Part shown: positions 30,001-57,073 of the stretch, piece after piece
Numbering within the stretch: position 1 is the stretch's first letter
Layout of the letters: each line of letters starts with the position of its first letter
Source: an uncultured Croceitalea sp.
Lineage (GTDB): Bacteria > Bacteroidota > Bacteroidia > Flavobacteriales > Flavobacteriaceae
Direction of reading: 5' to 3'
Assembly: GCA_947495075.1 (NCBI GenBank)
Contig: CANLXH010000002.1
Location: 992,001 to 1,056,000, forward strand
DNA: 64,000 nucleotides
Made by a program: the position numbers and the translations under genes
Notes under the pieces: model-generated
What the model saw: only the letters and a program-made list of their open reading frames with translations
The model's database searches: none
Told to the model about the DNA's origin: nothing

Positions 30001-30244
30001 TTTTTACTTGATTCCCAGAAAAGAAAATATCTTGTAGACCATCATTATTAATATCGCCTACAGCAACGCCACCGCCATTATAGTAATAAAGATAATCTAG
30101 TATATTAACGTTATCGTTACTTTGAAGTTTATTTTGAAAAAGGATTCCAGTTTTATTAGGCGAAGCATTTAAAAAAAGGTCACCTTCCTTGTTTTTGCAA
30201 CTTACTATGAGTAGTATTAATAGAATATAAATACTGTTTTTCAT
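26999..30244 (-). CDS. CRTAC1-like FG-GAP/VCBS-repeat lipoprotein with ASPIC/UnbV domain (copy 1)
   Basis: This is a protein of about 1081 residues. A lipoprotein signal (LLIVSC) is followed by many FG-GAP/VCBS-type beta-propeller repeats, each with a Ca2+-binding D-x-D/N-x-DG-x-x-D loop (for example GDINNDGLQD, DYDLDGDLD, DFDNDGDVD). An ASPIC/UnbV segment (about residues 515-585; GIGTKVFSYHEG..., RGFQASSEPFIHFG, DSLQIIWPD) comes between the first and second propellers. Such proteins are thought to sit on the outer membrane and bind ligands or partners; no enzymatic activity is established. I chose ATG 30244; a GTG at 30259 would overlap the upstream stop by 4 bases. It is 61-base-scale similar in layout to two paralogues in this window. 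Confidence 0.85.
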   Translation of the reverse strand: MKNSIYILLILLIVSCKNKEGDLFLNASPNKTGILFQNKLQSNDNVNILDYLYYYNGGGVAVGDINNDGLQDIFFSGNQVKNALYLNKGNLKFEDISTSSGIQGNSTWNTGAIMGDVNGDGFLDIYVCAVVGINGFNGYNELYINNGDNTFEEKAKLYGLDFDSYSSNAAFLDYDLDGDLDLYILNHAVHTQKSFGRVDLRYDRNYQTGDKLMRNDNGKFVEVSEEAGIYGGINGYGLGLSIADFNQDGYPDIYIGNDFHEDDYYYLNNGDGTFTESLRKYFGHTSRFSMGNDVSDINHDGYPDLISLDMLPEKEIPLKSSEGDDNIQIQKLRIESYGYHYQFTRNMLYVNQPSGQYLETALLSGVAATDWSWSALFADYNQDGEQDLFISNGISKRPNDLDFVKYVSNEQIKKKINNTKLVDQNAIDLMPSGAVQNYIFKGNGNLEFKDKSSDWINNDTLVSGATALADFDNDGDVDLVTNNIDNYPTLYINKTNKSSNYLKIKFDYTNENRFGIGTKVFSYHEGKLQYKELYVTRGFQASSEPFIHFGYGNKEIIDSLQIIWPDRTYQVLKNVEVNQSLTIKQKNSKPFNYEQLSKKNKKVFQKTKSNLGINFTHKEDNYIDFIREKLVPYRTSDRGPAIAVGDLNNDGKEDIYFGSSKFDVSKVYLQRDTTYAENKFLNLQKDKVKEEVAAAIFDINGDAVNDIFLGSGGADFYGKAKPLLDSYYIQKDTSFIENTLPNYFENASVVKPSDFDGDGDLDIFIGANVVSKGFGESPNSAILQNNNGKLSIYKDFEYSQLGMITDAIWHDFDNDSIKDLIVIGEWMSPRFFKNSSGKFIEVEPLAKKINGLWQSIIPFDIDNDGDIDYLLGNWGVNSKFKASSENPMRIHISDFDNNGAIETIISTKKKGNYYPLLGLDELASQMVFLRKKFTTYKDFAGKSMTQIFDAKALKQAKLLEVTELRSGYLKNNNGIFEFEAFKPELQIAPITSFLKYDFDNDGKEEVLSAGNYFGVKPYQGRFDSFPGALIKNENRITLANNLGLNLEQKSTRHLNIITLKGQKYLLVTFNNDTCHVYEIIK

Positions 30245-30255
30245 ATAGTAATCTT

Positions 30256-33200
30256 TCACTTTTCTTTAATTGTATATAATATTGGCGCCATATTGTTGAT
30301 ACCTACTAAAATTTTTTCTTTTTCATCAATCTCAATTTCTTTTATAGTTCTTGCAGGTCCAGGAATATTTATTTGCCAATCCTTAGCATATTCAAAACCA
30401 TTTTTAGAATCAAATTTCAAAAATATACCATGTGAGGCATCCATCCTACCTAATTGTGTGCTTATTTCATAGGTGTTACCAACAACTAAAACATCTTTAA
30501 AACCATCATGATTAAAATCTTTAATTAGCATGTCTTTTACACTTGAAATTTGAGCCATTTTTGGAAGCTGCTTTTTTATGAAATTACCATTCCCATCATT
30601 CTCAAAAAAACAGCTTGCCAACTCATATACTTTTTCTTTTTTTGCTTTTTCAAGTTTTTTAGTGCCAAATAATTGTTCTAGGGAAGCCGATGCAAAATCT
30701 TTATAAGACAAAAATTTCTTATTTAAAAAAGGCATTTGTTTCACTAACTCATCTTTAGATGTAAAGGGAGTCTCTTTTTCTTTATAAAAATAAGTTACCA
30801 AAGATTCTATTGAACCATTACTATCAAAATCATTGCTGTAGAGCGTGATTGGATTTTCTGTTGAAGCAGAGAATTTACTATTATGCCCCCAATTACCTGC
30901 GATTAAATCAATATCACCATCATTATCGAAATCTTCAGCTTTTATGGTATTCCACCATCCGTGAGTATTTATAAATTCACTTGCTTCTTTTTTCTCAAAA
31001 ACTTTTCCGTTATTTAGAAATATAGAAATAGGCATCCAGTAGCCTACAACAATGATATCTTGAAATCCATTATTATCTATATCTGCCCAAACAATATCTT
31101 TAACTGAGCCTACAGTTTCAAAATCATATGCTTTTGCTTTGGTAATGTTATTAAAATTACCATTTCCATCATTTTTAAAAATATATTGCTTAGCTCTTTC
31201 TCCAAATTGTGCCGGAGTCTGATCGGAAGTTATTACAACATCATTGTCATTATCATTATCAAAATCACAGACGCTTACTTTAGATGCGTTTAGCTCGACA
31301 CCTTTAAATTGTATCGTATCTTTTATAAAAGTACCATTTTGATTTATATAAAGTCTTGGTTGAATTCTTTTAGAATTTTTAAACTCATTACCACCACTAA
31401 CAACTAATAAATCTTTAAATCCATTATTGTTAGCGTCAAAAAAGACATGCGAAACATCTTCATTTAAGACATCTAGAGAAAACAACTCTTTTTGGACTTG
31501 TAGAAATTCATTAGTAGTTGTTTGAATATACAATGCTGAAGATTGCCCTTTTGCGCCGCTAATAAAAAAATCGTCTAAACCATCATTATTTATATCATCT
31601 ACGGAGATTGAAGGTCCTTCATTAGAATTAGCAAAAGGAATTAAAGGATTGCGATCAAATTCAATGGTCGTATTGTCTTTATGGATAAACTCAGTTATAG
31701 ACTCCACTTGCGCAACTATTTTATTTTTTGTAGCGTCTTTTTGAATAAATGTTTCTGAAGAATTGGTGTAATTTAAAACGAGTGTTTTCTTTGTATTTAC
31801 GGTTAATAAGGTTTCTTGCCTTTTGTTAGGCCAGGTTATTTTTAATGAGTCAATGATACTGTCATTGCCTATTCCAATAAGTAGCTCATTGGGTACAGCG
31901 GATAAATATGACCTAGATGGATAATTCTCTACTACTCTTTGAGTTCCTTTAGTGTAAGCAATAATTTTAGAGCCTACACCAAAAATATTTTTTTTACTAC
32001 CTTTTAATCTAATTTTTAAAGCTTTATTCTTGTTTTTCAAGGTGTTTTCCAAAAGATAAGCCTCAGTATCGATGTTATTTACAATTATATCTAAATCTCC
32101 ATCATTGTCTAAATCTGCATAGCTACACCCATTACTGAAAGAAGGTTCACTCTTAAACCAAGTGTCTGTTACATTTTTGAATGTTAGGCCATCTGTATTC
32201 TTAAAAAAATAATTGGATACTTTTTTCTCAGGCATTTCCTTAATGAAGCTCATTTCTTTTTCTGTCATACCTTGATTTATTCTTTTCTGAATATTATCAT
32301 TAGCGATAAAGTTTATGAAATCCATATCATTTGTAGCTCCTTTAATTCCGTTTGAAATAAAGATGTCTTTAAGTCCATCATTATCAAAATCTGCTAACAA
32401 AGCACCCCAGGACCATTCTGTAGCCGCAATACCGCTAAGATTCGCTACTTCACTAAAATTAGAATCACCTAGATTTAGGTGTAGAGTATTCTGCATATAC
32501 TGTGGAGCATAACCATTTTTTAAATAGTTTTGGTAGGTTGAAAATGGAAATTCTAGACCAGATGTTTTGTAGGTTTTCAAATCTTCTGGTAACATATCTA
32601 ACGAAACAATATCGGTCTTGCCATCATTGTTTAAATCTGCAATGTCATTTCCCATAGAAAAATGGGTGGTATGCCCTAAATTTGTGTTGTTAGAACTGAT
32701 GATTTCCTTAAAAGTTCCATCTTTTTGATTGATATATAGGTAATCGTTTTCAAAAAAATCATTTCCGACATAGATATCAGGATACCCATCATTATTTAAA
32801 TCACTAATCCCTAACCCCAATCCATATCCAATATTTCCTTGAAAAATCTGTGCTTCAACTGAAACATCTACAAAGTAATTATCGTCATTTCTAAAAAGTT
32901 TATCGCCTGACTTACTGTCTATGTTTTTTCGTTTGTTTCCTCTACCGTATGTGCGATTAGGAAATGTAGAATGATTGAGTAAAAATAAATCCAAATCGCC
33001 ATCTAAATCGTAATCAAAAAATGCAGCTTTAGTCGAAAAGCCTGAAAAATCTAAACCATAGTTAGCAGCCTCTTCTTTAAAACTAGGAATACCATTTTCA
33101 TTTACACCTTTATTAATGTAAAGTAAATTGTGACTCTTAAAGTTTTTAAAGCTCCCAACCTTACAAATGTAAATGTCAAGTAATCCATCGTTATTAATAT

Positions 33201-33555
33201 CTACATGGGTTACACCAGTAGTCCAATCATCATCATTCGATAATTTAGCCTGCTGCGTAATATCTTCAAACCTAAAACCACCTTTATTTAGATAGAGTTT
33301 ATCCTCTGCTTGGTTAGCGGTAAAATAAAGATCTATTAATTTATCATTATTAAAGTCGCCAGCTGCAACTCCGGCGCCATTATAAAAATAGAGGTAGTTA
33401 AGAATATTTAATTCTGGTGAACTATCTAAGGAATTGGTAAATGTTATTCCAGAGTATGAGGCAGGTATTTTTTTGAAAAGACTCGTGTCCTGTTTTTTAA
33501 CACAACCGTAGATAAAAATTAGGAAGCCAAAAGCAATAAGGCGATAGATTTTCAT
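30256..33555 (-). CDS. CRTAC1-like FG-GAP/VCBS-repeat lipoprotein with ASPIC/UnbV domain (copy 2)
   Basis: This 1099-residue paralogue of the neighbouring gene has lipobox Cys18 (IFIYGC), an N-terminal block NYLYFYNGAGVAAGDFNND shared by all three copies, repeated Ca2+-type loops (DINNDGLLD, DYDLDGDLD, DLDNDGDLD) and an ASPIC/UnbV segment in the middle (GVGSKIIAYTKG, SRSYLSAVPNELLIGIG, DSLKITWPN). The ASPIC part lacks the RGFQSS wording of copies 1 and 3. It lies 74 bases downstream of the sodium/solute symporter and is translationally close to copy 1, so the symporter, both FG-GAP proteins and the PAP2 protein look like one transcript. Surface ligand binding is inferred. Confidence 0.85.
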   Translation of the reverse strand: MKIYRLIAFGFLIFIYGCVKKQDTSLFKKIPASYSGITFTNSLDSSPELNILNYLYFYNGAGVAAGDFNNDKLIDLYFTANQAEDKLYLNKGGFRFEDITQQAKLSNDDDWTTGVTHVDINNDGLLDIYICKVGSFKNFKSHNLLYINKGVNENGIPSFKEEAANYGLDFSGFSTKAAFFDYDLDGDLDLFLLNHSTFPNRTYGRGNKRKNIDSKSGDKLFRNDDNYFVDVSVEAQIFQGNIGYGLGLGISDLNNDGYPDIYVGNDFFENDYLYINQKDGTFKEIISSNNTNLGHTTHFSMGNDIADLNNDGKTDIVSLDMLPEDLKTYKTSGLEFPFSTYQNYLKNGYAPQYMQNTLHLNLGDSNFSEVANLSGIAATEWSWGALLADFDNDGLKDIFISNGIKGATNDMDFINFIANDNIQKRINQGMTEKEMSFIKEMPEKKVSNYFFKNTDGLTFKNVTDTWFKSEPSFSNGCSYADLDNDGDLDIIVNNIDTEAYLLENTLKNKNKALKIRLKGSKKNIFGVGSKIIAYTKGTQRVVENYPSRSYLSAVPNELLIGIGNDSIIDSLKITWPNKRQETLLTVNTKKTLVLNYTNSSETFIQKDATKNKIVAQVESITEFIHKDNTTIEFDRNPLIPFANSNEGPSISVDDINNDGLDDFFISGAKGQSSALYIQTTTNEFLQVQKELFSLDVLNEDVSHVFFDANNNGFKDLLVVSGGNEFKNSKRIQPRLYINQNGTFIKDTIQFKGVELNASKVSVCDFDNDNDNDVVITSDQTPAQFGERAKQYIFKNDGNGNFNNITKAKAYDFETVGSVKDIVWADIDNNGFQDIIVVGYWMPISIFLNNGKVFEKKEASEFINTHGWWNTIKAEDFDNDGDIDLIAGNWGHNSKFSASTENPITLYSNDFDSNGSIESLVTYFYKEKETPFTSKDELVKQMPFLNKKFLSYKDFASASLEQLFGTKKLEKAKKEKVYELASCFFENDGNGNFIKKQLPKMAQISSVKDMLIKDFNHDGFKDVLVVGNTYEISTQLGRMDASHGIFLKFDSKNGFEYAKDWQINIPGPARTIKEIEIDEKEKILVGINNMAPILYTIKEK

Positions 33556-33629: not shown

Positions 33630-35174
33630 CTAATGAAAAATGATATGTAACGCTATTAAGGATAAAGCCATTCCAACACCAACTTTTCCTAATAGTGGAG
33701 AGGCAGGTTCAGGTTTTAACTTATCCTTGATAAACCCACTTTTTGAACCTAACCAAATAATTACAAAACCTAGAATAATTACCCACATGGCACGAACTAA
33801 GTAATTCATGTCAGGGAATGTGTAGATAAACAAAAATTGAAGAGGTATTGTTGCTATAAATCCAATTAGAGCTACACGATGTTTTGGAGCCATTAAAAAA
33901 GCAGCAGCACATATTAACACCACAATACCGCAGTTAATAAAATATCTTAGCTCATTCAAGGTATGAGTAAAAGCAGCACCGGAATCCTTAAATTTTATAT
34001 ATAGCAAGACAATTCCTATAATTACCCCAGATATGAAAGCTAGTAAAATTGCTCTTTTACCCGACTTTACAATTTGTTGGTCTGTAGCATCCTTTTTAAT
34101 GTAAACCTTATAAATATCTATAGACCAAAGTGTTGCCAAAGAATTAAATGTAGAATCAACAGTACTCATTAGAGATGCAAATAGAGCGCATAAAATAAGG
34201 CCTTTAAGACCAACTGGTAGATAGGTATTTACTAAGTAAGGAAAAGCTGAATCTGGATCTGCTAAGCCATTATCTCCTAAAATGCCTACTAACGCTATTC
34301 CAGGAAGTATGATAATAGCAGCCATAAAATATTTCATAACACCACCAACCATAAGACCTATTTGAATATCTTTTAGACTTCTAGCGGCTAAGGACCGTTG
34401 TACAACAGATTGGTTGGCGCACCAATAATTAATATTTAGTAAGAAGGCACCAAAAACATGAATCCATGGTAGTTTTGGGTGATCCGCGGGAAGGTGCAAA
34501 TGCATTAAATCCCCAGTCTTGGTATACAATTGGGACCAACCACCTAAATGATGTATCGCAATAAGCATAACAACTATACCGCCAGAAAGTAAAATTGCAA
34601 ATTGGATTACGTCTGTTCTAACTACGGCAGCTAAGCCGCCAAAATAGGTATAGGTAGCTGAAAATAGACCTAGAAAAACAATTAAAATGGCAATGCGTGT
34701 TAACCTATCCTGATGTATGAATGATAAATAATCACCAAAAACCAAATCGACTGAATAGGCCCCCCAGAATAATGCTGCTCCGAGTGTGATTGTCGAAAAA
34801 AGAAGAATATTGGATGCAGAGTATAATAGTGCAATTGTACTGCCCAATCTTGTTTTAATAAACTGTGTTATTGTGATAATCTTCTCACGAAAGTACATAG
34901 GTACAAATATGAAAGCAGCAAGTAGCAAACCTTGAATGGCATTTATTTCAAAGTTTGCCTGTGCTAAACCATACAAATAAGCAGAACCCATGAACCCTAA
35001 AAATTGATAGCCTTGCACATTAGTTGCTATAGTTGAAAATGCAATTGATGGCCAACGAAGATTTCTGGAACTCAGAAAATATTCTTCAGTAGTGGCATTT
35101 TTTGAGGTTTTACCCGTAATTGCAGTTACAAAAACGATAACGAAATAAGCGCAGACAATTAATAAGTCAATCAT
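33630..35174 (-). CDS. Sodium/solute symporter (SSS family, SGLT-like)
   Basis: This 514-residue inner-membrane protein has about 13-14 hydrophobic segments, the SSS N-terminal pattern EEYFLSSRNLRWP and the sodium-site region FASLMSTVDSTFNS. SGLT-like members carry sugars, myo-inositol, sialic acid or organic acids with Na+. Since it sits 74 bases downstream of the sulfonate monooxygenase gene and under a LacI-type regulatory region, it is the best candidate for importing the substrate of that enzyme, possibly sulfoquinovose or its glycoside. That assignment is by context only. It could instead import hexose for the GH65 pathway. Confidence 0.88.
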   Translation of the reverse strand: MIDLLIVCAYFVIVFVTAITGKTSKNATTEEYFLSSRNLRWPSIAFSTIATNVQGYQFLGFMGSAYLYGLAQANFEINAIQGLLLAAFIFVPMYFREKIITITQFIKTRLGSTIALLYSASNILLFSTITLGAALFWGAYSVDLVFGDYLSFIHQDRLTRIAILIVFLGLFSATYTYFGGLAAVVRTDVIQFAILLSGGIVVMLIAIHHLGGWSQLYTKTGDLMHLHLPADHPKLPWIHVFGAFLLNINYWCANQSVVQRSLAARSLKDIQIGLMVGGVMKYFMAAIIILPGIALVGILGDNGLADPDSAFPYLVNTYLPVGLKGLILCALFASLMSTVDSTFNSLATLWSIDIYKVYIKKDATDQQIVKSGKRAILLAFISGVIIGIVLLYIKFKDSGAAFTHTLNELRYFINCGIVVLICAAAFLMAPKHRVALIGFIATIPLQFLFIYTFPDMNYLVRAMWVIILGFVIIWLGSKSGFIKDKLKPEPASPLLGKVGVGMALSLIALHIIFH

Positions 35175-35248
35175 AGTTGGCTATTGTTTGGTTGGTAAAA
35201 CACTGTAATATAAGATTTTGTTATTAAAAACAAGTTTGATGTTATTTT

Positions 35249-36406
35249 CTAGATACGGATTCCACCAGCTAGTGGTGATAAAGGTTCTTCCGTTGTTACT
35301 TTTCCTTGTGCTATTGGCATAGAAAAAGTTTTAAGTTTTGGCATAACTAATTTTGCAAATCTTTCGCATTCTTCTTTGTGCGGATAACCCGAAAAGATAA
35401 AAGATTTGATACCCATATCCATATAGCGATTAAGTTTTGCTACAATCTGGTCAGGAGTTCCAACTAATGCAGCTCCACACCCAGAACGCCCTTTTCCAAT
35501 ACCAGTCCATAAGTTGTCTTCTACATAGCCATCATCTTCTGAAATTTCTCTCATTTTGGCTTGCCTACTCACACCGTAAGATTTTGCATCTAGCGCGCGT
35601 TCTCTCATTTCTATTCCCTGTTCTACACCTAGTTTTGATATTATACTATCCGCATATGCTCTAGCCTCTTCTTCTGTCTCCCTCACTACCACATGGACTC
35701 TTAATCCAAAATCTACTTTTCTATTGTAACTTGCGGCTTTAGCACTCATATTTTCCATAAGGGTTCTTAAATTACTCATGGTTTCTGGCCACATAAGATA
35801 TACATCACAATGTTCTGCGCATAGATCTACAGCCGCAGGGGAGTATCCACCAAAATATAATAATGGACCATTTTTTTGATAAGACTTTCCTGGACTGGAA
35901 GGTAATTTCATTTTATAAAAAGAGCCTTCAAAATTAACTTCATCTTTAGTCCATATTTGTTTTAATATTTCGATTACCTCACGAGATCTTTGATATCTAT
36001 CTTCAGAAGATAGGTCTTCGCCTGGCAAGTTAGATGATATAATATTTATAGTAAATCTTCCTTTTAAGATATGGTCTATTGTAGCCAAGGTTCTGGCTAA
36101 CATTGGAGGGTGAATTTCACCACACCTAACAGCTGCTAGAATATTTATCTGTTCGGTCATTGGAGCAACTGCGGCTACAAATGGCAAAGTGTCTTGGCCA
36201 ACTTGATAAGATGAAGGGCATAGAATATTCCTATACCCGTTCTTATCTGCGGTCAAAAGAATTTCTGAAGCATTTTTAAAAGTACTTTTGTACGCCATAT
36301 TCCGTTCACCTAAATACCTGTCATCACCATTACAAATAGGAGCGAACCAAGAAACTTCTGCTCCTTCTAAATGAGGGGATCTAATTTGTATTTTATTTGT
36401 ACTCAT
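35249..36406 (-). CDS. FMNH2-dependent sulfonate monooxygenase, SsuD/SmoC-like (LLM class)
   Basis: This 385-residue enzyme is of the luciferase-like monooxygenase class and aligns along its length with alkanesulfonate monooxygenase SsuD. Key residues are kept: Trp206 (DVYLMWPE), Arg236 and His238 (LRVHVVVRET), Arg307 in the active-site loop (GIGKGRSGCG), and Tyr341/His343 (SGYPHKEE). SsuD Cys54 is replaced (the segment reads CPSSYQ). These enzymes cleave the C-S bond with O2 and reduced FMN, giving an aldehyde and sulfite. The aldo/keto reductase encoded 15 bases upstream and the divergent FMN reductase supply the other two activities of the Agrobacterium sulfo-SMO route, so sulfoquinovose is the favoured substrate. 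Other alkanesulfonates cannot be excluded. Confidence 0.87.
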   Translation of the reverse strand: MSTNKIQIRSPHLEGAEVSWFAPICNGDDRYLGERNMAYKSTFKNASEILLTADKNGYRNILCPSSYQVGQDTLPFVAAVAPMTEQINILAAVRCGEIHPPMLARTLATIDHILKGRFTINIISSNLPGEDLSSEDRYQRSREVIEILKQIWTKDEVNFEGSFYKMKLPSSPGKSYQKNGPLLYFGGYSPAAVDLCAEHCDVYLMWPETMSNLRTLMENMSAKAASYNRKVDFGLRVHVVVRETEEEARAYADSIISKLGVEQGIEMRERALDAKSYGVSRQAKMREISEDDGYVEDNLWTGIGKGRSGCGAALVGTPDQIVAKLNRYMDMGIKSFIFSGYPHKEECERFAKLVMPKLKTFSMPIAQGKVTTEEPLSPLAGGIRI

Positions 36407-36421
36407 ATAATTAGTTTATTG

Positions 36422-37309
36422 TTAATCAATTTCCCTTCCTAAAGCAGCCTCCCATAGCATATACCATTCTTCATGGGTAAGACTAAAATCTAATGCTTTT
36501 TTAGCGGAGATAATCCGTTCTATTTTAGAAGTTCCTAGAACAGGAATTATAGTTGCTGGATGTTTTTTTAACCATAAGTATAGAATTTGGTCTGGTTCTA
36601 AATTGTATTTTTCAGATAATTTTTTCAATACCTTCTGTATCCTCAATATTACTGTATCCTTAGTTTCTTTAAATAGGGAACCGCCACCTAAAGGTGACCA
36701 TGCACATGGTATAGTATCCAATTTTTGACATTGATCTAAAGTACCATCCTCAAAAGCGTTTCTACGTAATAATGATATTTCTATTTGATTGGTTACTAAT
36801 GGAGTGTAGGTATTTAAAAGATCAAATTGTGATGGGCTAAAATTTGAAACACCAAAAGAAAGCACTTTGCCTTCTTTTTTTAATTCTGAGAACACGGCTG
36901 CAATTTCCTTTGGATTAAATAGATAATCTGGTCTATGAAGCAATAGTACATCTAGGTAGTCTGTTCCTAACTCTCGCAATGAAATTTCTACAGATTCTCT
37001 GATGTGCTTTTGAGTTAAATTATAAGATTTTATATTGTGCTTTGGTCTGTTATCGGAAATAAGTTTAATACCACATTTTGTAGTTATTCTCATTTTCTTA
37101 CGAAGTTCTGGTCTTTTTTTAACAACATTTCCAAACTCAGTTTCTGTGGTATAATGTCCATAAATATCTGCATGATCAAAATCTATCAGATTTAAATCCA
37201 AACAGCCTTCTATAAATTGCTCATATTCTTTAGAGGATAATTTACTGCCCCAATCTCCTAATCTCATAGTGCCAATGATGAAAGGAGATACATTTTGTTT
37301 TGAAAACAT
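36422..37309 (-). CDS. Aldo/keto reductase, YdhF/SmoB-like
   Basis: This NADPH-dependent oxidoreductase has about 295 residues in a TIM-barrel fold. Tetrad residues are Asp45 and Tyr50 (FDHADIYG), Lys78 (TTKCGI) and His125 (LLLHRPD), with the C-terminal cofactor segment IPVLGTSKIERI. It is nearest in wording to the E. coli YdhF group (FGVSNFSPSQF..., NQIEISLLRR). In the sulfo-SMO pathway SmoB of this superfamily reduces 6-oxo-glucose to glucose after desulfonation; the same role is proposed here. I prefer ATG 37309; the longest frame begins at a TTG at 37339. The gene leads the minus-strand run and has an operator 40 bases upstream. Confidence 0.85.
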   Translation of the reverse strand: MFSKQNVSPFIIGTMRLGDWGSKLSSKEYEQFIEGCLDLNLIDFDHADIYGHYTTETEFGNVVKKRPELRKKMRITTKCGIKLISDNRPKHNIKSYNLTQKHIRESVEISLRELGTDYLDVLLLHRPDYLFNPKEIAAVFSELKKEGKVLSFGVSNFSPSQFDLLNTYTPLVTNQIEISLLRRNAFEDGTLDQCQKLDTIPCAWSPLGGGSLFKETKDTVILRIQKVLKKLSEKYNLEPDQILYLWLKKHPATIIPVLGTSKIERIISAKKALDFSLTHEEWYMLWEAALGREID

Positions 37310-37348
37310 TAATGATGGTGTTTTTTCAAATTTAACCAAATATTACAA

Positions 37349-37366
37349 AATGTAAACGTTTACATT
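37349..37366. promoter_or_regulatory. LacI-type operator, perfect 18-bp palindrome (site 1)
   Basis: AATGTAAACGTTTACATT is a perfect inverted repeat with the central CG typical of LacI/PurR/CcpA-family operators. It lies in the divergent gap between the aldo/keto reductase gene and the FMN reductase gene, so one bound regulator could control both directions. An identical copy is at 39956-39973, and a LacI-family gene lies between the two sites. Confidence 0.85.
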
Positions 37367-37417
37367 GAAAAATATGCTAATTTTACCAAGTGTATCTTAA
37401 AATTAATCATTAAGTAA

Positions 37418-37960
37418 ATGATAACCATTATTTCAGGGTCCAATAGGGACAGTAATAAAACATTTTATTTTGCTAAGGCTGCGTTAAAAGAGCTACAAAA
37501 ACAAACCAATGAAGAAGTCAGGTTTTTAGACCTATCAAGTTTAAAAGGTAGTTTGGTTAACAGTGTTATGTATAAAGATTCTGACCAGCCATTGATTATC
37601 AAAGATATACAAGACGACTATTTTCTGCCAGCATCTAAATTCTGGTTTTTTATTCCAGAATATAATGGTAGCTATCCAGGTGTAGTTAAATTACTTTTAG
37701 ATGTTATGTCCGTTCGGGAAATCAAGAATACTTTTAACGAAAAAAAAGCATGTATAACTGGAATAGCATCAGGTAGAGCAGGTAATCTTAGGGGTATGGA
37801 CCATCTTGCAGATGTATTAAACCATTTGGGAATTCTGGTGCATCCAAATAAGAACCCTATTTCCTCAATTTATAAATTAATCGACTCGGAATCTAAAGAT
37901 GTGTCTAAAGATGCTACTGAGGTTTTACAGAAGCAATTAGTAGAACTATTAAAGTTTTAG
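37418..37960 (+). CDS. NADPH-dependent FMN reductase
   Basis: This 180-residue flavodoxin-fold reductase has the FMN-phosphate loop GSNRDSN (7-13), the family motif PEYNGSYPG (80-88) and GIASGRAGNLRGMDHL (about 106-121). It should reduce FMN with NAD(P)H and release it for a two-component monooxygenase. It is divergent from the aldo/keto reductase and SsuD-like monooxygenase genes across a shared operator, which makes it the natural partner of that monooxygenase (as SsuE to SsuD or SmoA to SmoC). It ends directly against the convergent LacI gene with no gap. Confidence 0.87.
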   Translation: MITIISGSNRDSNKTFYFAKAALKELQKQTNEEVRFLDLSSLKGSLVNSVMYKDSDQPLIIKDIQDDYFLPASKFWFFIPEYNGSYPGVVKLLLDVMSVREIKNTFNEKKACITGIASGRAGNLRGMDHLADVLNHLGILVHPNKNPISSIYKLIDSESKDVSKDATEVLQKQLVELLKF

Positions 37961-38974
37961 CTACTGAGACAGGGATGATTCTCTGATGATTAATTTAGGG
38001 GATAAAATTTCCGTTTTAGGGGAAATTAATTTTTCTGAATTAAGGATTTCCAATAACATGCATGCGGACAATTTTCCCATTTCAGAATTTCTTTGATCTA
38101 TAGTGCTTAGTTTTGGCTGAACAAGTGAACTGAAATTTGTATTGCCAAAACCAATTAACTTAACATCTTTAGGTACATCAATCTGTATTTTTTTAAGAAT
38201 ATTTAGAATATACAAAGCACTTTCATCGCCATGAGCAAAAATACCATCGGTAGGATTTTCACTATCATTGCATAGATTTTGGATGGTCTTACTATCTGCT
38301 AACTCATTCATATTTAGATGTACTATAGATGTTTCCTCGTTGTAGAACGACCCATAATCCTGTAAAGCTGAAACATATCCTTTTTTCCTTTCTTTGTGTA
38401 TTTCCATTTTAAGATTTCCGACAATATGTATTATGTTTTTACATCCTTGATTAATTAAATGTTCTGTAGCTAAGAAAGCGCCTTTATAGTTGTCGAAGCC
38501 AATTTGATTGGTATTTTTTAATTGATGAGTCCTATCAAAAAATACAACAGGAATATTGTAGCTATTTAATCTTTTTATAATATTTAATGCTATGGTTTGC
38601 TCTGTGAAAGACAACAATACGCCATCAACTTTTGATTGAATAAAAGACTGAATTGCTTTTATTTCTTTTTCTTTAGATTCATGCGATTGTGCTATAATAA
38701 TAGAATAATTTGCTTCGTTGGCTTTTTGCTCAATACCATTAATAATACTGCTAAAAAATGGATTGCTAAGTTCAGGTATGATAATACCAATAATTTTACT
38801 TTTACCGCTTCTTAAGGCTGAAGCCATTAAATTAGGTTGATAATCAAGTTTTTTAGAAGCTTTTAATACTATTTCTCTTGTTTTTTTGGATACAAGAGGG
38901 CTTTCATTAAAGACTCGAGAGATTGTCGCTAAGGAAAGACCAGTAATTTTTGCGATATCTTTTATTCCAGCCAT
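37961..38974 (-). CDS. LacI-family transcriptional regulator of the sulfonate/sulfosugar locus
   Basis: This regulator of about 337 residues has an N-terminal helix-turn-helix (IKDIAKITGLSLATISRVFN, about 4-23) and a periplasmic-binding-protein-like sensor domain (IIGIIIPELSNPFF..., DGIFAHGD, LIGFGNTNF). I chose ATG 38974 (MAGIKDIAK), since the longer frame from 39046 adds 24 residues that fit no LacI protein and overlap the exporter gene. It follows the YeiH-type exporter gene by 20 bases and is therefore under the operator at 39956-39973, giving autoregulation. LacI proteins mostly sense sugars or sugar phosphates, which supports a sugar-derived inducer. Confidence 0.9.
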   Translation of the reverse strand: MAGIKDIAKITGLSLATISRVFNESPLVSKKTREIVLKASKKLDYQPNLMASALRSGKSKIIGIIIPELSNPFFSSIINGIEQKANEANYSIIIAQSHESKEKEIKAIQSFIQSKVDGVLLSFTEQTIALNIIKRLNSYNIPVVFFDRTHQLKNTNQIGFDNYKGAFLATEHLINQGCKNIIHIVGNLKMEIHKERKKGYVSALQDYGSFYNEETSIVHLNMNELADSKTIQNLCNDSENPTDGIFAHGDESALYILNILKKIQIDVPKDVKLIGFGNTNFSSLVQPKLSTIDQRNSEMGKLSACMLLEILNSEKLISPKTEILSPKLIIRESSLSQ

Positions 38975-38994
38975 AAGTTTAATAACTACTGTAT

Positions 38995-39927
38995 TTACAT
39001 ATAAGTAAGAATATATATTAAAGATATAATTGCTAAAATAAGCCAAGTAATCATACCAACTAATAGAATATTAAAACCCAGTTTCTTTAATTGTTTGATA
39101 TTAATTTGAAGCCCAATCAGAAACAAGGTGAAAATTAATAATTTTCGCGCTCCCCAAACTATATACTCATTTATAGATTGTATTTGAGGTAGATAAGAAG
39201 CCAGAATCATTGCACCTAAAAACCCAAGTATAAACCAAGGAAACTTAAATTTCTCTTTAGTATCTGATCCAAAAGATATTATTAAAACTAGTGGAATAAT
39301 CCACAATGTTCTTACTAATTTAGTTGTAGTAGCAATATTCAATGCTTTTTCCCCAAAAATTTCGGCAGCCCCTACAACAGAACTAGTATCATGTATTGCT
39401 ATAGCCGACCATAAGCCAAATTGACTTTGATTTAAATTAAAATATTGACCTATTAATGGGAAAATAAAAAGCGCTACTGCATTTAATAAGAATACGATGG
39501 CTAAAGAAATTGAAGTCTGGTTAGAATTTGCTTTAATACTAGGGCTGACTGCTGCAATTGCGCTACCTCCACATATTGCGGTGCCTGATGCAATTAAAAT
39601 AGTTGTGACTCTATCAGATTTAAGCAATTTACCTAATACAAAGGCTATTATGAAAACAAATACAATAGTGATTAACGTAGTAAAAAAACTATTGGAACCA
39701 ACAGCAATCGCTTGTTTAATATGTATTCCAAACCCCAACCCTATCACTGAAGCTTGTAAAAGGTATTTTTGAATTGGTTTAACTTTTACAACAAGATTTT
39801 CGTTTGCTAGTTTAAAAACCCCAATTAACATTCCCGATGCTAGTGCTAATGAAGGAGGAACTAAACCAAATAACACTCCTGTAAGTACAAGACCCCCAAT
39901 ACAATATGTGAAAACTTTGCCTAACAT
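38995..39927 (-). CDS. YeiH-family putative sulfate/sulfite exporter
   Basis: This 310-residue membrane protein has about nine to ten hydrophobic helices and the family signatures ASGTAICGGSAIAAVSP (about 113-129) and WSAIAIHDTSSVVGAAEIFG. The family (YeiH, PF03601) is commonly annotated as a putative sulfate exporter; biochemical proof is thin. Next to a C-S-bond-cleaving monooxygenase that releases sulfite, export of sulfite or sulfate is a sensible role. It shares a transcript with the LacI gene and has an operator 29 bases before its start codon. Confidence 0.85.
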   Translation of the reverse strand: MLGKVFTYCIGGLVLTGVLFGLVPPSLALASGMLIGVFKLANENLVVKVKPIQKYLLQASVIGLGFGIHIKQAIAVGSNSFFTTLITIVFVFIIAFVLGKLLKSDRVTTILIASGTAICGGSAIAAVSPSIKANSNQTSISLAIVFLLNAVALFIFPLIGQYFNLNQSQFGLWSAIAIHDTSSVVGAAEIFGEKALNIATTTKLVRTLWIIPLVLIISFGSDTKEKFKFPWFILGFLGAMILASYLPQIQSINEYIVWGARKLLIFTLFLIGLQINIKQLKKLGFNILLVGMITWLILAIISLIYILTYM

Positions 39928-39955: not shown

Positions 39956-39973
39956 AATGTAAACGTTTACATT
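39956..39973. promoter_or_regulatory. LacI-type operator, perfect 18-bp palindrome (site 2)
   Basis: This site is identical over all 18 bases to the one at 37349-37366 and sits 29 bases upstream of the YeiH-type exporter start codon, between it and the end of the third FG-GAP gene. Two exact copies around one LacI gene make the regulon assignment strong. Confidence 0.85.
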
Positions 39974-40008: not shown

Positions 40009-43000
40009 TCACTTTATTTTATAGGTTATTGGCGATTCACTATTTCTTGCGATAAACAAAAAATTATTATTGTTAGAATCTTTAAAGGATTTGATATGCT
40101 TTATTTCTCCTTTCTGAAAGAAACCAGAATCTTCACTGGGCATTAGTTTGTAAGTTGCATTGCCTGTACCTAAGAGAATATCGCCATTACTGGAATCTTG
40201 TCTAGAATATTGTGGTTTAAAACCATAATTGTTGCCACCTAAAACTATATCAAGAACGGCATCATTATTAAAATCTGTAATGTGTATAGCTGAAACACTA
40301 GAAAACTGGACCTGTTGTGGGAGTTTTTTAATTTTAAAATTACCTTTTCCATCGTTTACTGCTATGACACTTTCCATTGTATTTACAGTTTTTACGATAG
40401 TATTGTTAAGCACCTCTTTTGAAAATAACTTATCAATACTTTTTTTAGCGTAGTCTGAGAATTTTATATTCTCCTTTTTTAGAGAAACAATTTGATTAGT
40501 AAGCTCCCTTTTTAATATTATTGGATAATCCTTACCACCTATGCTTTGAGTCGTAATTTGTTCAATTGTACCATTATTGTCAAAATCGTTAATGAACATT
40601 TTAATAGGTTTTTTTTGAGAAGCTTTATAAATAATATTACTTCCACTATTTCCTAAGATTAAATCTATATCTCCATCATTGTCTATATCTTTGGTTTTAA
40701 CCACATTCCACCAACCATTTAGGCTATCTAAATTTGTTTGTAGAAGACTTAAACGGCGTCCATTATTTTTGAAAATTTTAGGGGCTCCCCAATCACTACT
40801 TATAACTAAATCTTTTTTTGAATCATTATTTATATCTGCCCATTCAGCCGATGTAATCATTCCAACATCTTTTAGACCAAACGCTCTATTTTCAGTTACA
40901 TCAGAAAAAATACCTTCTCCTATATTTTCTAAAAAAAGGTGTTGTGGATTTATTCCATAAATACCTGGGACGCTCCTACTGGTTATTAAAATATCTATAT
41001 CGCCATCTTTGTCAAAATCGTAAGGGAGAATACAAGAAGTATTATGGTTGGTATTAGGTAATTGATGTGGACTCTTACTAAAATTACCTTTTCCATCATT
41101 TAAGTATAACCGATTAGAATAACGATTAGCATCATAAGGGTTATTACCTCCAGAACCAACAATTAAATCATTATCACCATCATTATCTGCATCAAAAAAT
41201 GAAGCGGCTACATCTTCAAAAAAACTATCTGCACGGAATATATCTAATGTCTTTTTTAGGATTAGTTTGCCATTACCTTTATGGGTATAAATTTTTGCTA
41301 CTCTTCCTTTTGAAGCCCCTAAAAAGATATCTTCATTTCCGTCATTATTAATATCTCCTACTGCAATTGCCGGTCCCTCTTTTGATAACATTTGGGATAT
41401 TAAGCCTTCATAGTCAAAATCAATATGGCTATCTTCTTTGTGCGCAGAAAAATCGTTATCAATTTTTTCTAGAAGGATTTCTTTTTTTGATGCTACTGCG
41501 GTATAATCCATTTTAGCATCTTCTTGTTTAAGGGTGATGGTTGTATTTAGGTTAGGTTTATTAATCTGTTCAATTTTATTATTAGGCCATATTATTCTCA
41601 AAGAATCTATAATATGTTTTTTACCTAAACCTAATGTGACTGTATAATCTACAGAAGATTGAAAACCACGAGATGGTATAAGCTCTTGTCTTATTACTAT
41701 ATTTTTGCCATATAGTTCTACGACACTCCCTATTGCAAATGTATTTTTATCTTCACCTTGTAATTTGAGCCTAATATAGTTGTTGCCTAATTTTTCACTA
41801 TTGTTTTTATAAATAAATACTTCCTGGTTTACATTATTAATAACCAAATCAAGATCTCCATCATTGTCTAAATCTCCATATGCAGCGCCATTAGAAAAGC
41901 TAGGAGTATCTAGGCCCCAAGCATTTGCCATGTTAGAGAAGGTTAAATTCGTATTATTTTTAAAAGCATAGTTAGGAATTGGAACAGACGGCATTGCATC
42001 TATCACTTTTTGTTTCTCATTTTTACTACCACTTATTGCAGTTTGTTGTCTTGTTATATCTTCGAAAAAATCAATAAAATCTTGGTTGGTTAAATCGTGA
42101 TAAATACCATTACTAACAAATATATCTCTATAACCATCATTATCCATATCAAAAAGAAGTGCACCCCAACTCCAATCGGTATTGGAAACACCACTATAAT
42201 TTGATATTTCAGAAAAAGTATTCCCTTGGTTTAGCTGCAAACTATTCTGCATGTATTGATGATAATAGTCGTTTCTTAGCTTAAGCCGATACGTGTCATA
42301 AGACTCAAAATTAGTTGTATTTTTAAGTCTCTCATCTTTTTCAGGTAGCATATCTGTAACGAAAATATCTGATTTACCGTCATTGTTTATATCAGCCATA
42401 TCTGCTCCCATCGAGAACATACTTAAGTGATTAGCCCAATTTTTTATGTCTTCGGTAAAAGTTCCATCTTGGTTATTTATGTATAAATAGTCATGCTCAA
42501 AAAAATCATTTGAAACATAGATGTCTGGATATAAATCGTTGTTTATATCGCCGACGGTAACTCCTAAACCAAAACCAATAAGACTTCCGTAAATATTTGC
42601 CTCTTCACTTACATCTTTAAAAATACCGTTATCGTTTCTGAGTAACTTATCGCCTCCACCTTTTATTTTTTCTGGAACATTCCAGTCCTTTGATCTAACA
42701 TCTCGTTTATTATCATAGCCTAAACTGGCAACAGGAATAAAACTATTATTTAACATATATACATCTAAGTCGCCATCTTTATCATAATCAAAAAATGCAC
42801 TGTGAGTAGTTAAACCACTTTCAGCAAGATTATATTCCTCAGCTCGTTCGGTAAATGTTAAATCACCATTGTTTATAAAGAGTTCATTTTTTTGATCATC
42901 ATTTTTGATATTACCTGCGTTACAAACATAAATATCCAAAAGGTTATCAGCATTAATATCCACAAACACCACGCCGGTAGACCATGCTTTGGTTCCATTA

Positions 43001-43347
43001 ACCTTGGCTTTATCTGTGATATCCTCAAATATAAAGTCACCTTTGTTTAAGTAAAGTTTATTTTTGTTTCTATTTGCAGTGAAATAAATATCTGGTAACC
43101 CATCATTATTGATGTCACCAATAGCAACTCCACCACCATTATAAAAATTACGATATAGAAAAATATTAAAATCTTCTTCGTTTTCTATTTCATTTATAAA
43201 ATCAATTCCTGTAGTTTTTGTCTCTAGTTTTGTAAATAAAGTTTTCTGGTTAATTTCTGATGTACTATTCTTAACCTCATTAGTACAACTAATTAAGAGA
43301 TAGGATAGAGACAGACTTAGATATAATATTTTACTGAAATCTAACAT
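40009..43347 (-). CDS. CRTAC1-like FG-GAP/VCBS-repeat lipoprotein with ASPIC/UnbV domain (copy 3)
   Basis: This is a third paralogue, of about 1112 residues. It has lipobox Cys at about residue 21 (YLLISC), the shared opening block FYNGGGVAIGDINNDG, many Ca2+-type D-x-D/N-x-DG loops and a central ASPIC/UnbV segment (AIGSVVELYGKN, SRGFQSSVDYTVTLGLG, DSLRIIWPN). I chose ATG 43347; an ATG at 43368 adds seven residues (MLFKKCH). It lies between the SusC/SusD pair (separated by a hairpin terminator) and the exporter/LacI unit, in the same direction, and seems to be its own transcript. Like copies 1 and 2, it probably acts on the outer membrane surface. Confidence 0.85.
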   Translation of the reverse strand: MLDFSKILYLSLSLSYLLISCTNEVKNSTSEINQKTLFTKLETKTTGIDFINEIENEEDFNIFLYRNFYNGGGVAIGDINNDGLPDIYFTANRNKNKLYLNKGDFIFEDITDKAKVNGTKAWSTGVVFVDINADNLLDIYVCNAGNIKNDDQKNELFINNGDLTFTERAEEYNLAESGLTTHSAFFDYDKDGDLDVYMLNNSFIPVASLGYDNKRDVRSKDWNVPEKIKGGGDKLLRNDNGIFKDVSEEANIYGSLIGFGLGVTVGDINNDLYPDIYVSNDFFEHDYLYINNQDGTFTEDIKNWANHLSMFSMGADMADINNDGKSDIFVTDMLPEKDERLKNTTNFESYDTYRLKLRNDYYHQYMQNSLQLNQGNTFSEISNYSGVSNTDWSWGALLFDMDNDGYRDIFVSNGIYHDLTNQDFIDFFEDITRQQTAISGSKNEKQKVIDAMPSVPIPNYAFKNNTNLTFSNMANAWGLDTPSFSNGAAYGDLDNDGDLDLVINNVNQEVFIYKNNSEKLGNNYIRLKLQGEDKNTFAIGSVVELYGKNIVIRQELIPSRGFQSSVDYTVTLGLGKKHIIDSLRIIWPNNKIEQINKPNLNTTITLKQEDAKMDYTAVASKKEILLEKIDNDFSAHKEDSHIDFDYEGLISQMLSKEGPAIAVGDINNDGNEDIFLGASKGRVAKIYTHKGNGKLILKKTLDIFRADSFFEDVAASFFDADNDGDNDLIVGSGGNNPYDANRYSNRLYLNDGKGNFSKSPHQLPNTNHNTSCILPYDFDKDGDIDILITSRSVPGIYGINPQHLFLENIGEGIFSDVTENRAFGLKDVGMITSAEWADINNDSKKDLVISSDWGAPKIFKNNGRRLSLLQTNLDSLNGWWNVVKTKDIDNDGDIDLILGNSGSNIIYKASQKKPIKMFINDFDNNGTIEQITTQSIGGKDYPIILKRELTNQIVSLKKENIKFSDYAKKSIDKLFSKEVLNNTIVKTVNTMESVIAVNDGKGNFKIKKLPQQVQFSSVSAIHITDFNNDAVLDIVLGGNNYGFKPQYSRQDSSNGDILLGTGNATYKLMPSEDSGFFQKGEIKHIKSFKDSNNNNFLFIARNSESPITYKIK

Positions 43348-43471
43348 GTGACATTTCTTAAACAACATAGAAAATTTAATCTAACTATTAGTATGCAAAT
43401 TTCATAATGATTTTAATATTATTCAAATAAGAATAGAATAATAGTAATTAAAAATGAATAGGATAAAAATA

Positions 43472-43522: not shown

Positions 43523-45058
43523 TTAGTATCCTTCGTTCTGCGTTAAATTTGGATTTGTTGCCAAAGCATCAGCAGGAATCGGGAATTTTTTTCTAAAATC
43601 TTCAGTTACATTTTTAAGAGACCAAGTCTCAGCGAAAGTACCAAAGCGAATTTGATCTTGTCTTCTCCAGTTCTCTGCATTTAATTCACGCATTCTAATA
43701 TCTAGCATATCGCCTAAAGCAACTGAACCAAGTGGGGCAGCATTTGCTCTAGTTCTAATAGCGTTAATGTCAGCAAGAGCATCTGGACCGCCAGTACCAC
43801 CTCTAAGTGTTGCTTCTGCACGCATTAATACAGCATCACCATACCTAAAGAACACAGCAGCATTTGATGGAGCAGGAAAACCGTCCGCATTTCTTTGAGG
43901 ATATTTTATGACTCTTACACCAGTTCTTTCATTATTAACTTCTAAACTTTGTAGTGGAGCAACCTCATAAACTAAAGGATTATTTTGTCGGTCAGTTAAT
44001 GAACTTCCATCAGAGTCTAATTGCTGACCTCTCAGATAACCAACTGTAACACCGTTAACTTGGTCACTTGGCACACCGACACGAGCATCTTCAGCAGGAT
44101 CGTCAGTACCAAATAATTGGAAGTTTTCTGTTAAAGTTACAAAACCATTCCATCCTGTTTGATTTGGGTGTAACATATTAAATACTCTATTGCCAGTAAA
44201 AGTGTCTAATCCAAATATAACTTCTGTATTACCAGCATCAAGATCCCAGATATCAAAATATCCATTTGGTCCAGTACCTGGGTCTAAAGAATAACCTAAT
44301 GCTTCAATGGCATTTACATCCGCAATTACAGAATTCATATCTCCTGCTGTACCGGTAAAAGCTTCAGCATTTAATTGAAGTTTAGCTCTTAACATCAGAG
44401 CCATTGCTTCACCTGCATTGAAAATATCCCCATCTGGCCCATGACCTGATAAATTACCACTAGAAATCGCTGTATTCAAGTCATTTAAAATAAAATCAAA
44501 CGCAGCTTGAGCTTCTAAAACTTCAGGATTTACATCAACACCATCATTTACACCCCTAAAAGGTACTTTTCCGTACCAATCTAAAATCCAGAACATATTA
44601 AATGCTCTTAACACTTGAGCTTGTGCAACCGTAGCTGGTGGTGCACTAGAAGCTGGATCTATTAATTGCGTAGCCGCCAATACCTGAGAATTACGATTGT
44701 TCCATGCGCCGCGGACATAACCATGTTGTGCATCCCAAGTATGAGCATGCAGGGTCCGCCAAATACCGTTATCACTCCAATCAACACCACGGGTTAAAAC
44801 GGCAATACCATCCGCACTTACTTCCATAAGCGCATATTCATTGGCTTGATCACCCATATTTTCGATATTGTCGTATAGAGCACCTAGAGCATTAGCAGTA
44901 TTACCAACCCCTCCAAAAGCGCCATCACCACCTGATTGAATTTCAGTGGAATCACCAAATTCTGGTTCCAAATCTGTACATGCTTGCCCTAGTACTAAAG
45001 CACTAGCTATGCCTAAATACTGAACAATTTTCTTACTAATCATTTTTTTTCTTATCAT
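43523..45058 (-). CDS. SusD/RagB-family outer-membrane nutrient-binding lipoprotein
   Basis: This 511-residue lipoprotein has Cys27 in the lipobox LGQAC and the SusD pattern of TPR-like helices with the late motif ADINAIRTRANAAPLG and the region NWRRQDQIRFGTF. It should cap the SusC-type channel encoded 17 bases upstream and hold the glycan or oligosaccharide. No SusE/SusF-like gene follows; a terminator comes directly after. The pair is divergent from a LacI-bPGM-GH65-GH13 operon, so an alpha-glucan ligand is likely. The nearby sulfosugar-type locus is an alternative source of ligand. A second start (MISKK, residue 6) is possible. Confidence 0.92.
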   Translation of the reverse strand: MIRKKMISKKIVQYLGIASALVLGQACTDLEPEFGDSTEIQSGGDGAFGGVGNTANALGALYDNIENMGDQANEYALMEVSADGIAVLTRGVDWSDNGIWRTLHAHTWDAQHGYVRGAWNNRNSQVLAATQLIDPASSAPPATVAQAQVLRAFNMFWILDWYGKVPFRGVNDGVDVNPEVLEAQAAFDFILNDLNTAISSGNLSGHGPDGDIFNAGEAMALMLRAKLQLNAEAFTGTAGDMNSVIADVNAIEALGYSLDPGTGPNGYFDIWDLDAGNTEVIFGLDTFTGNRVFNMLHPNQTGWNGFVTLTENFQLFGTDDPAEDARVGVPSDQVNGVTVGYLRGQQLDSDGSSLTDRQNNPLVYEVAPLQSLEVNNERTGVRVIKYPQRNADGFPAPSNAAVFFRYGDAVLMRAEATLRGGTGGPDALADINAIRTRANAAPLGSVALGDMLDIRMRELNAENWRRQDQIRFGTFAETWSLKNVTEDFRKKFPIPADALATNPNLTQNEGY

Positions 45059-49421: not shown

Positions 49422-49441
49422 TTTTACCCAAATTTTATAGA

Positions 49442-57059: not shown

Positions 57060-57073
57060 GGTATTATACCAAT

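Follow-up and report, generated by a model that had tools for sequence, protein, structure and literature searches.

Known sulfoquinovose monooxygenase systems and a related locus in Flavobacteriaceae

In Agrobacterium, the sulfo-SMO pathway employs a flavin reductase (SmoA), an aldo/keto reductase (SmoB) and a monooxygenase (SmoC) to convert sulfoquinovose (SQ), a sulfosugar of plants and algae, to glucose and sulfite. Both in Agrobacterium and in Novosphingobium, sulfo-SMO systems import their substrate through an ATP-binding cassette (ABC) importer. A locus resembling these systems is found in a 64,000-nucleotide stretch of DNA from an uncultured Croceitalea sp. (Bacteroidota, Flavobacteriaceae; assembly GCA_947495075.1, contig CANLXH010000002.1, positions 992,001 to 1,056,000), here called the window. 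It encodes a SmoC-type monooxygenase, an aldo/keto reductase, an NAD(P)H:flavin mononucleotide (FMN) reductase, a Na+/solute symporter, a putative sulfite/sulfate exporter and a LacI-family regulator. Judged from its sequence, this regulated gene set most likely serves a flavobacterium in SQ uptake and desulfonation to sulfite, a route that published texts describe mainly in other bacterial groups.

SQ production is put at about 10 billion tons a year in the texts of PMC12890257 and PMC10755693. According to the text of PMC12890257, it is mainly alpha- and beta-proteobacteria that use the oxidative monooxygenase route, and that of PMC13372026 reports frequent sulfo-SMO clusters in Actinomycetota and Spirochaetota. 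Figures and supplements aside, neither text names Bacteroidota as carriers: the string "Bacteroid" occurs in PMC13372026 in one reference title only and is absent from PMC12890257. Among the titles listed by searches of open-licence literature on this subject, none is about such an SQ monooxygenase locus in Bacteroidota. If the assignment is true, Flavobacteriaceae and Saprospiraceae would join the organisms returning SQ sulfur to sulfite and sulfate, offering a regulon open to testing and a missing glycosidase to find.

Compared with the sulfo-SMO (sulfo-ASMO) systems of Agrobacterium and Novosphingobium (SmoABC / SquD-SsuE-SquF), the window locus shares a SmoC-type monooxygenase, a YdhF/SmoB-type aldo/keto reductase, a flavin reductase and the presumed oxidative release of sulfite. 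It differs in its Na+ symporter, its FMN reductase of family PF03358, its LacI regulator and 16-bp palindrome and its Bacteroidota host, and no sulfoquinovosidase of glycoside hydrolase family 31 (GH31) was found. The SmoC clusters of Ruegeria TM1040 and Rhizobium SL42 likewise unite SmoC with an aldo/keto reductase, a flavin reductase and a putative sulfate exporter. These clusters carry a TRAP transporter, a GntR regulator and a Gfo/Idh protein, with a PF01613 flavin reductase in Ruegeria, whereas the window locus has the symporter, LacI and PF03358 proteins and no match to the Ruegeria Gfo/Idh protein. The latter is presumed to belong to GH188, since the text of PMC10755693 reports GH188 in Roseobacter sulfo-SMO clusters.

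The monooxygenase is of the SmoC type

The original prediction for this DNA placed six genes together at positions 33630-39927, and open reading frames with the expected Pfam families are present there. The host genome comprises 3.73 Mb in 15 contigs (completeness 99.99%), and its only match to the Bac_luciferase family (luciferase-like monooxygenases, LLM) is the monooxygenase of this locus. In phmmer comparison with PDB sequences, the protein scored 474 bits to 7oh2, 471 to 7olf, 246 to MsuD and 201 to SsuD. Both 7oh2 and 7olf are titled as monooxygenases for the oxidative desulfurization of sulfoquinovose. Identity is 55% to either of them as opposed to 34-39% to SsuD and MsuD, with which the protein shares its fold, six sulfonate/flavin-site residues and the presumed dependence on reduced FMN (FMNH2). 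Its AlphaFold model (mean predicted local distance difference test, pLDDT, of 85) has 7oh2 and 7olf chains as its top four Foldseek matches, and the SsuD equivalog TIGR03565 gives 272 bits, where the curated threshold is 518.

In a tree of 110 rows, an SsuD/MsuD outgroup pair is separated from all 108 SmoC-type rows with a support of 100, and proteobacterial SmoC falls on a long branch within the Bacteroidota diversity, a picture obtained by a quick method with an outgroup of just two rows and with the long-branch join flagged. The rows nearest to the window protein are from Flavobacteriaceae, for example an uncultured Croceitalea. Further, at 59 alignment columns at least 93% of 112 SmoC-type rows (duplicate loci included) share a letter that neither SsuD nor MsuD has there. 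This SmoC letter is present in the window protein at 57 of them (exceptions 157 and 355) and in 7olf and 7oh2 at 55 (exceptions at window positions 99, 122, 127 and 145).

Trp206, Arg236, His238, Arg307, Tyr341 and His343 had been put forward as retained active-site residues. All six are found at these positions, but SsuD and MsuD possess all six as well, and they are therefore no test of SmoC versus SsuD/MsuD. A position away from both SsuD and SmoC had been named as the outcome that would count against the idea; phmmer, tree and Foldseek all put the enzyme on the SmoC side. By alignment and predicted structure, the protein is a SmoC-type enzyme and not an SsuD.

A cassette conserved in close relatives

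Scanned against species genomes, the window monooxygenase gave at least 577 relatives among 592 candidate stretches. Only the best 80 of the 577 were kept, so the set described below is biased to window-like sequences. The kept stretches bear mostly the labels of Flavobacteriaceae, Saprospiraceae or other Bacteroidota; Chloroflexota is named for two, and a group name is lacking for two more. From 110 SmoC rows, four duplicates (at least 98% identity) were dropped, leaving 106, and removal of five plasmid records resulted in 101 counted loci including the window (individual loci are given by L numbers). Close kin remain within this set; 69 of the 101 loci have at least three genes on both sides and many others are cut by contig ends. 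In genome-wide searches, 18 of the 299 family genomes (E 1e-30) and 7 of the 395 phylum genomes (E 1e-100) proved to have a SmoC-type gene, the host genome counted in both; the one genome sampled from the same genus has none. SmoC-type genes are thus patchy yet spread across Bacteroidota.

In close relatives, gene order is conserved with small differences: SusC, SusD, FG-GAP protein, exporter, LacI, FMN reductase (on the opposite strand), aldo/keto reductase, SmoC and symporter, followed in several by SorA and SorB. The cassette is also present in Flagellimonas meridianipacifica DSM 25027 (L061). Across the 101 loci, an FMN reductase accompanies SmoC in 12, an aldo/keto reductase in 42 and an exporter in 11. 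Of 97 evaluable loci, 37 have the aldo/keto reductase gene immediately upstream of SmoC in the same orientation; the window protein and its counterpart in the Ruegeria SmoC cluster are 38% identical. The text of PMC13372026 takes SmoB and SmoC together as enough for a sulfo-SMO pathway and looks for a SmoB-like reductase within ten genes of SmoC; here the adjacent gene encodes one, leaving that paper's BLAST thresholds aside.

The symporter gene comes immediately after SmoC, in the same orientation, in 64 of 94 evaluable loci. Its best PDB matches are the Vibrio transporter vSGLT (176 bits) and human SGLT1 (144 bits), compared with 78 bits for 5nv9, which we take to be a sialic-acid transporter. 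Among 67 SmoC-adjacent symporters (duplicate loci included), the vSGLT residues Q69, E88, N260, Y263, W264 and K294 are kept in 66-67, S91 is replaced by Ala in 66 and Q428 by Asn in 65. The window symporter follows this pattern throughout, with the six residues kept and S91A and Q428N changed. As these positions presumably form the sugar site, the pattern points to a hexose-like substrate bound in a modified site. A symporter replacing the ABC importer, as proposed in the original prediction, is in line with this likeness to Na+/glucose cotransporters.

A PF03601 protein is also encoded in the Ruegeria SmoC cluster (25% identity to the window exporter over 240 columns), and the Rhizobium cluster contains a gene whose product is named putative sulfate exporter. 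Within three genes of SmoC, 8 of the 101 loci, six of them close kin, encode, together with a CxxCH protein, a SorA-like one that has PF00174 and PF03404 and scores 180 bits against sulfite oxidase. The host genome has a SorAB-like pair about 640 kb from the locus, its SorA being 76% identical. Neither this pair nor the flanking FG-GAP/ASPIC lipoprotein genes nor the palindromes described below had been part of the original prediction.

A palindrome shared by the cassette promoters

A search of intergenic stretches identified an operator-like 16-bp perfect palindrome, ATGTAAACGTTTACAT, at two sites of the locus (Table 1). The 3.73-Mb genome contains exactly two perfect copies, both in the locus, none at one mismatch and five at two mismatches. 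Within the window, four matches occur at up to three mismatches versus 0.94 expected. With up to two mismatches allowed, 31 copies (21 perfect) occur in 16 of the 101 loci (1.63 Mb); none of 60 permuted palindromes had an exact copy there. Thirty of the 31 copies lie upstream of cassette genes, with one inside an over-long FMN reductase call in L053; the single exception is found between xylose isomerase-like and symporter genes in L054. Among the thirty are one preceding SorA, a sulfite dehydrogenase, in L059, two in the gap between SusC and LacI in L059 and L097 (two mismatches each) and one in that between SusC and an FG-GAP gene in L114.

This palindrome, shared by the same promoters in close relatives, suggests a single LacI regulon consisting of symporter, SmoC, aldo/keto reductase, FMN reductase and exporter. 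The LacI protein, a regulator already recognized in the original prediction and matched by PF00356 and Peripla_BP, may be the reader of the palindrome. Its start is probably Met25, because the helix-turn-helix match begins at residue 28.

Table 1 Features of the window and GH13 genes near SmoC in other loci
Feature	Position	Strand	Basis or remark
FG-GAP/ASPIC lipoprotein 1	26999..30259	-	BLAST clustering with the other two FG-GAP proteins; counterparts in close relatives
FG-GAP/ASPIC lipoprotein 2, following the symporter on the same strand	30256..33555	-	PF13517 and PF07593; counterparts beside the cassette in close relatives
Na+/solute symporter, Na+/glucose-cotransporter type, presumed SQ importer	33630..35174	-	SSF
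SmoC-type FMNH2-dependent sulfoquinovose monooxygenase, predicted (LLM family)	35249..36406	-	Bac_luciferase; phmmer, Foldseek, tree
Aldo/keto reductase, SmoB/YdhF-like, presumed 6-dehydroglucose reductase	36422..37339	-	PF00248 (Aldo_ket_red)
Operator-like 16-bp perfect palindrome ATGTAAACGTTTACAT	37350..37365	.	between aldo/keto reductase and FMN reductase genes
NAD(P)H:FMN reductase, presumed FMNH2 supply, divergent from SmoC operon	37418..37960	+	PF03358 (FMN_red)
LacI-family regulator, likely start 38974	37961..39046	-	PF00356 and Peripla_BP; comes after the exporter gene and its upstream palindrome
YeiH/PF03601 putative sulfite/sulfate exporter	38995..39927	-	PF03601, 206 bits
Operator-like 16-bp perfect palindrome ATGTAAACGTTTACAT	39957..39972	.	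29 bases upstream of exporter gene
FG-GAP/ASPIC lipoprotein 3, CRTAC1-like propeller model	40009..43368	-	Pfam; fold match
SusD-like lipoprotein, membership uncertain	43523..45058	-	Pfam; place kept in close relatives
SusC/RagA TonB-dependent transporter, membership uncertain	45076..48048	-	TIGR04056, 705 bits
GH13 genes near SmoC in other loci	L059:6763-8412; L066:6768-8417; L087:6195-7838; also L051, L096, L131		two members scanned

Proposed function and alternative explanations

We consider it probable that the locus is a LacI-controlled oxidative desulfonation unit for SQ or a very similar 6-sulfo-hexose, representing a Bacteroidota version of sulfo-SMO. This assignment draws on the family placement of the enzymes, the cassette conserved in close relatives, the shared palindrome and the hexose-type transporter site. 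From these we infer SQ as the substrate, each of the reactions, the direction of export, a role for SorAB, the reading of the palindrome by LacI and the inducer. In the proposed scheme, the symporter would carry the sulfosugar into the cytoplasm together with Na+, and the FMN reductase would supply FMNH2. Using FMNH2 and O2, the SmoC-type monooxygenase would oxidize C6 to yield sulfite and 6-dehydroglucose, an aldehyde that the aldo/keto reductase would reduce to glucose. Sulfite would be exported by the PF03601 protein and oxidized to sulfate by periplasmic SorAB. LacI would repress both units through the two palindrome copies until a sugar inducer binds.

Several observations weigh against this assignment. 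The SmoC family is not uniform: a clade of eight SmoC-like rows has His343 replaced by Leu (L048-L052, L136-L138), some of them beside amino-acid permeases, an amidohydrolase or GH95, and three further rows carry Asn343 (L034, L063, L064). Membership in the SmoC family alone therefore cannot fix the substrate; the His343Leu clade probably acts on another one, and the window enzyme has kept His343. The accompanying enzymes also deviate from the described systems. The aldo/keto reductase belongs to the predicted YdhF/SmoB-like family but is as near to YdhF as to SmoB, and none was called between FMN reductase and SmoC in the nearest relative (L053). An FMN reductase is present as predicted, but it belongs to PF03358; as it does not significantly match the Ruegeria reductase, which is of PF01613, it is probably not of the SmoA type. 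Similarly, the exporter, predicted to be of the YeiH type, is a member of PF03601 that scores 131 bits against NCBIfam YeiH, below the cut-off of 233. With regard to regulation, 85 of the 101 loci are free of the palindrome, and a backward control pattern has seven sites in the genome at up to two mismatches, the same number as the palindrome, so that only the perfect palindromes stand out. SorA is found in 81 of 299 family genomes, in 6 of 18 with SmoC versus 75 of 281 without (p = 0.59); no association at the genome level was found, and the link between SmoC and SorA is positional only. The search of this genome revealed no GH31-type sulfoquinovosidase and, at E 1e-5, no match to the Ruegeria Gfo/Idh protein. 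Finally, the text of PMC13372026 describes an SQ incubation in which Flavobacteriaceae fell from more than 50% of the particle-attached community and Comamonadaceae and Rhizobiaceae rose. Of the sulfo-SMO-like locus as originally predicted, the SmoC-type enzyme, aldo/keto reductase, sugar-type symporter, putative exporter and LacI regulator stand, while the six-residue argument, the particular likeness to SmoB and the SmoA-type flavin reductase are not supported.

The enzymes could instead act on another sulfonate such as dihydroxypropanesulfonate or sulfolactate, with desulfonation to a C3 aldehyde and reduction to glycerol or glycerate. The neighborhoods of some relatives speak for such a substrate, as does the occurrence within the family of the His343Leu clade with its other neighbors. 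Within three genes of SmoC, 8 of the 101 loci have a glycerol-3-phosphate dehydrogenase-type gene (L078, L080, L100, L116, L120, L126, L129, L033; accompanied by an FGGY kinase in L080, L116 and L120) and 5 have a glycerate kinase-type gene along with one for a GntP permease (L035, L037, L109, L127, L128), calls for which one member of each cluster was scanned. Such neighbors agree with sulfoquinovosyl glycerol and, to a lesser degree, with a C3 sulfonate. The glycerol genes are equally compatible with the former, which may be the natural substrate. Since the Na+/glucose-like symporter keeps most of its sugar-site residues, the nearest solved relatives are SQ monooxygenases and LacI-type control suits a sugar, we regard a C3 substrate as unlikely.

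Scavenging of sulfur from mixed alkanesulfonates under sulfur starvation, in the manner of SsuD, appears very unlikely. The superfamily and the six active-site residues are indeed common to SsuD and MsuD, but the score falls far short of the SsuD equivalog cut-off, a sugar-type regulator and a symporter stand alongside the monooxygenase, and a putative exporter under the same palindrome suggests an excess of sulfite. We give hardly any credence to a chance assembly of neighbors that form no single unit. The FMN reductase is encoded on the opposite strand, and the maltose-type genes nearby may be the true context of the SusCD and FG-GAP genes; against this stand the gene order conserved in close relatives and a shared palindrome that occurs nowhere else in the genome at zero or one mismatch.

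Candidate routes for sulfoquinovosides

No GH31 gene is present in the window, in agreement with the original prediction. The genome-wide search that it proposed did reveal one GH31 match (C1:1906416), but this looks like an ordinary alpha-glucosidase, with 441 bits to alpha-glucosidase II versus 103 to YihQ, and adjoins a gene that by eye resembles a glycogen branching enzyme. The search for sulfoquinovosidases covered 24 SmoC-bearing genomes, a set that does not include the best-80 scan loci. GH31 was matched in 10 of these genomes and gave no match in 14, and none was found on the stretches around SmoC. The Ruegeria Gfo/Idh query yielded local matches of 20-31% in 19 of the 24 Bacteroidota genomes and nothing in five including this one; two control plasmids gave 100% and 66%. 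Weak GH31 matches were seen in L146, L147 and L149, the longest frames being partial or unrelated for L146 and L149.

In 6 of the 101 loci, the window locus not among them, a GH13 gene resembling oligo-1,6-glucosidase is no more than three genes away from SmoC (Table 1). When the protein of L059 (Flavobacterium sp. ASW18X) is compared by eye with oligo-1,6-glucosidase 1uok in an alignment, catalytic-looking motifs are kept and some neighboring residues differ; the alignment gives no sign of sulfonate binding. Its best match in the Croceitalea genome is 49% identical and located on another contig. The organism may either use free SQ or possess an unrelated glycosidase. A more far-reaching proposal, which we hold to be rather unlikely, is a Bacteroidota-own SQ regulon (LacI operator, glucose-type symporter, SmoC, PF03601 exporter, SorAB and, in some lineages, SusCD) that would feed on intact sulfoquinovosides by way of a sulfoquinovosidase outside GH31 and GH188, with GH13 as the first candidate.

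Neighboring genes

The SusCD pair adjoins the cassette in close relatives, and distant relatives have other SusCD pairs (SusC 37% identical) with operator-like sites. In the window, no operator copy lies near SusC or SusD, and the pair was consequently dropped as a sure member of the unit. Beyond it follow a divergent LacI gene and HAD-, GH65- and GH13-type genes, and the SusD-like lipoprotein may belong to these neighboring maltose-type genes. The latter occupy positions 48399-54270 and comprise LacI, HAD/bPGM-like, GH65 and GH13 genes.

The model of FG-GAP lipoprotein 3 (mean pLDDT 78) has CRTAC1 as its best fold match (template modeling score 0.72 on target), and this fold comparison gave no hint of an enzyme. 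Downstream of the symporter, at positions 25639-33555, the genes of the other two FG-GAP/ASPIC lipoproteins and one gene of the PAP2 family all point in the same direction as it; the PAP2 gene is also found in L053.

Some relatives show further arrangements. The glycerate kinase-type and GntP permease-type genes immediately precede SmoC and the symporter, all on one strand; three of these loci belong to Arcticimaribacter metagenome-assembled genomes. An FGGY kinase gene and a xylose isomerase-like gene (by eye; no Pfam match) are situated beside the cassette in L022/L054 (L022/L054:14264-17459) and L057 (L057:13099-15910). In L049 and L137, Arg307 and Tyr341 of the SmoC-like protein are also changed to Phe, and amidohydrolase and amino-acid permease genes lie alongside. 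Lastly, positions 56331-58567 of the window encode a MIP channel and an FGGY kinase, by their look a glycerol facilitator and kinase pair.

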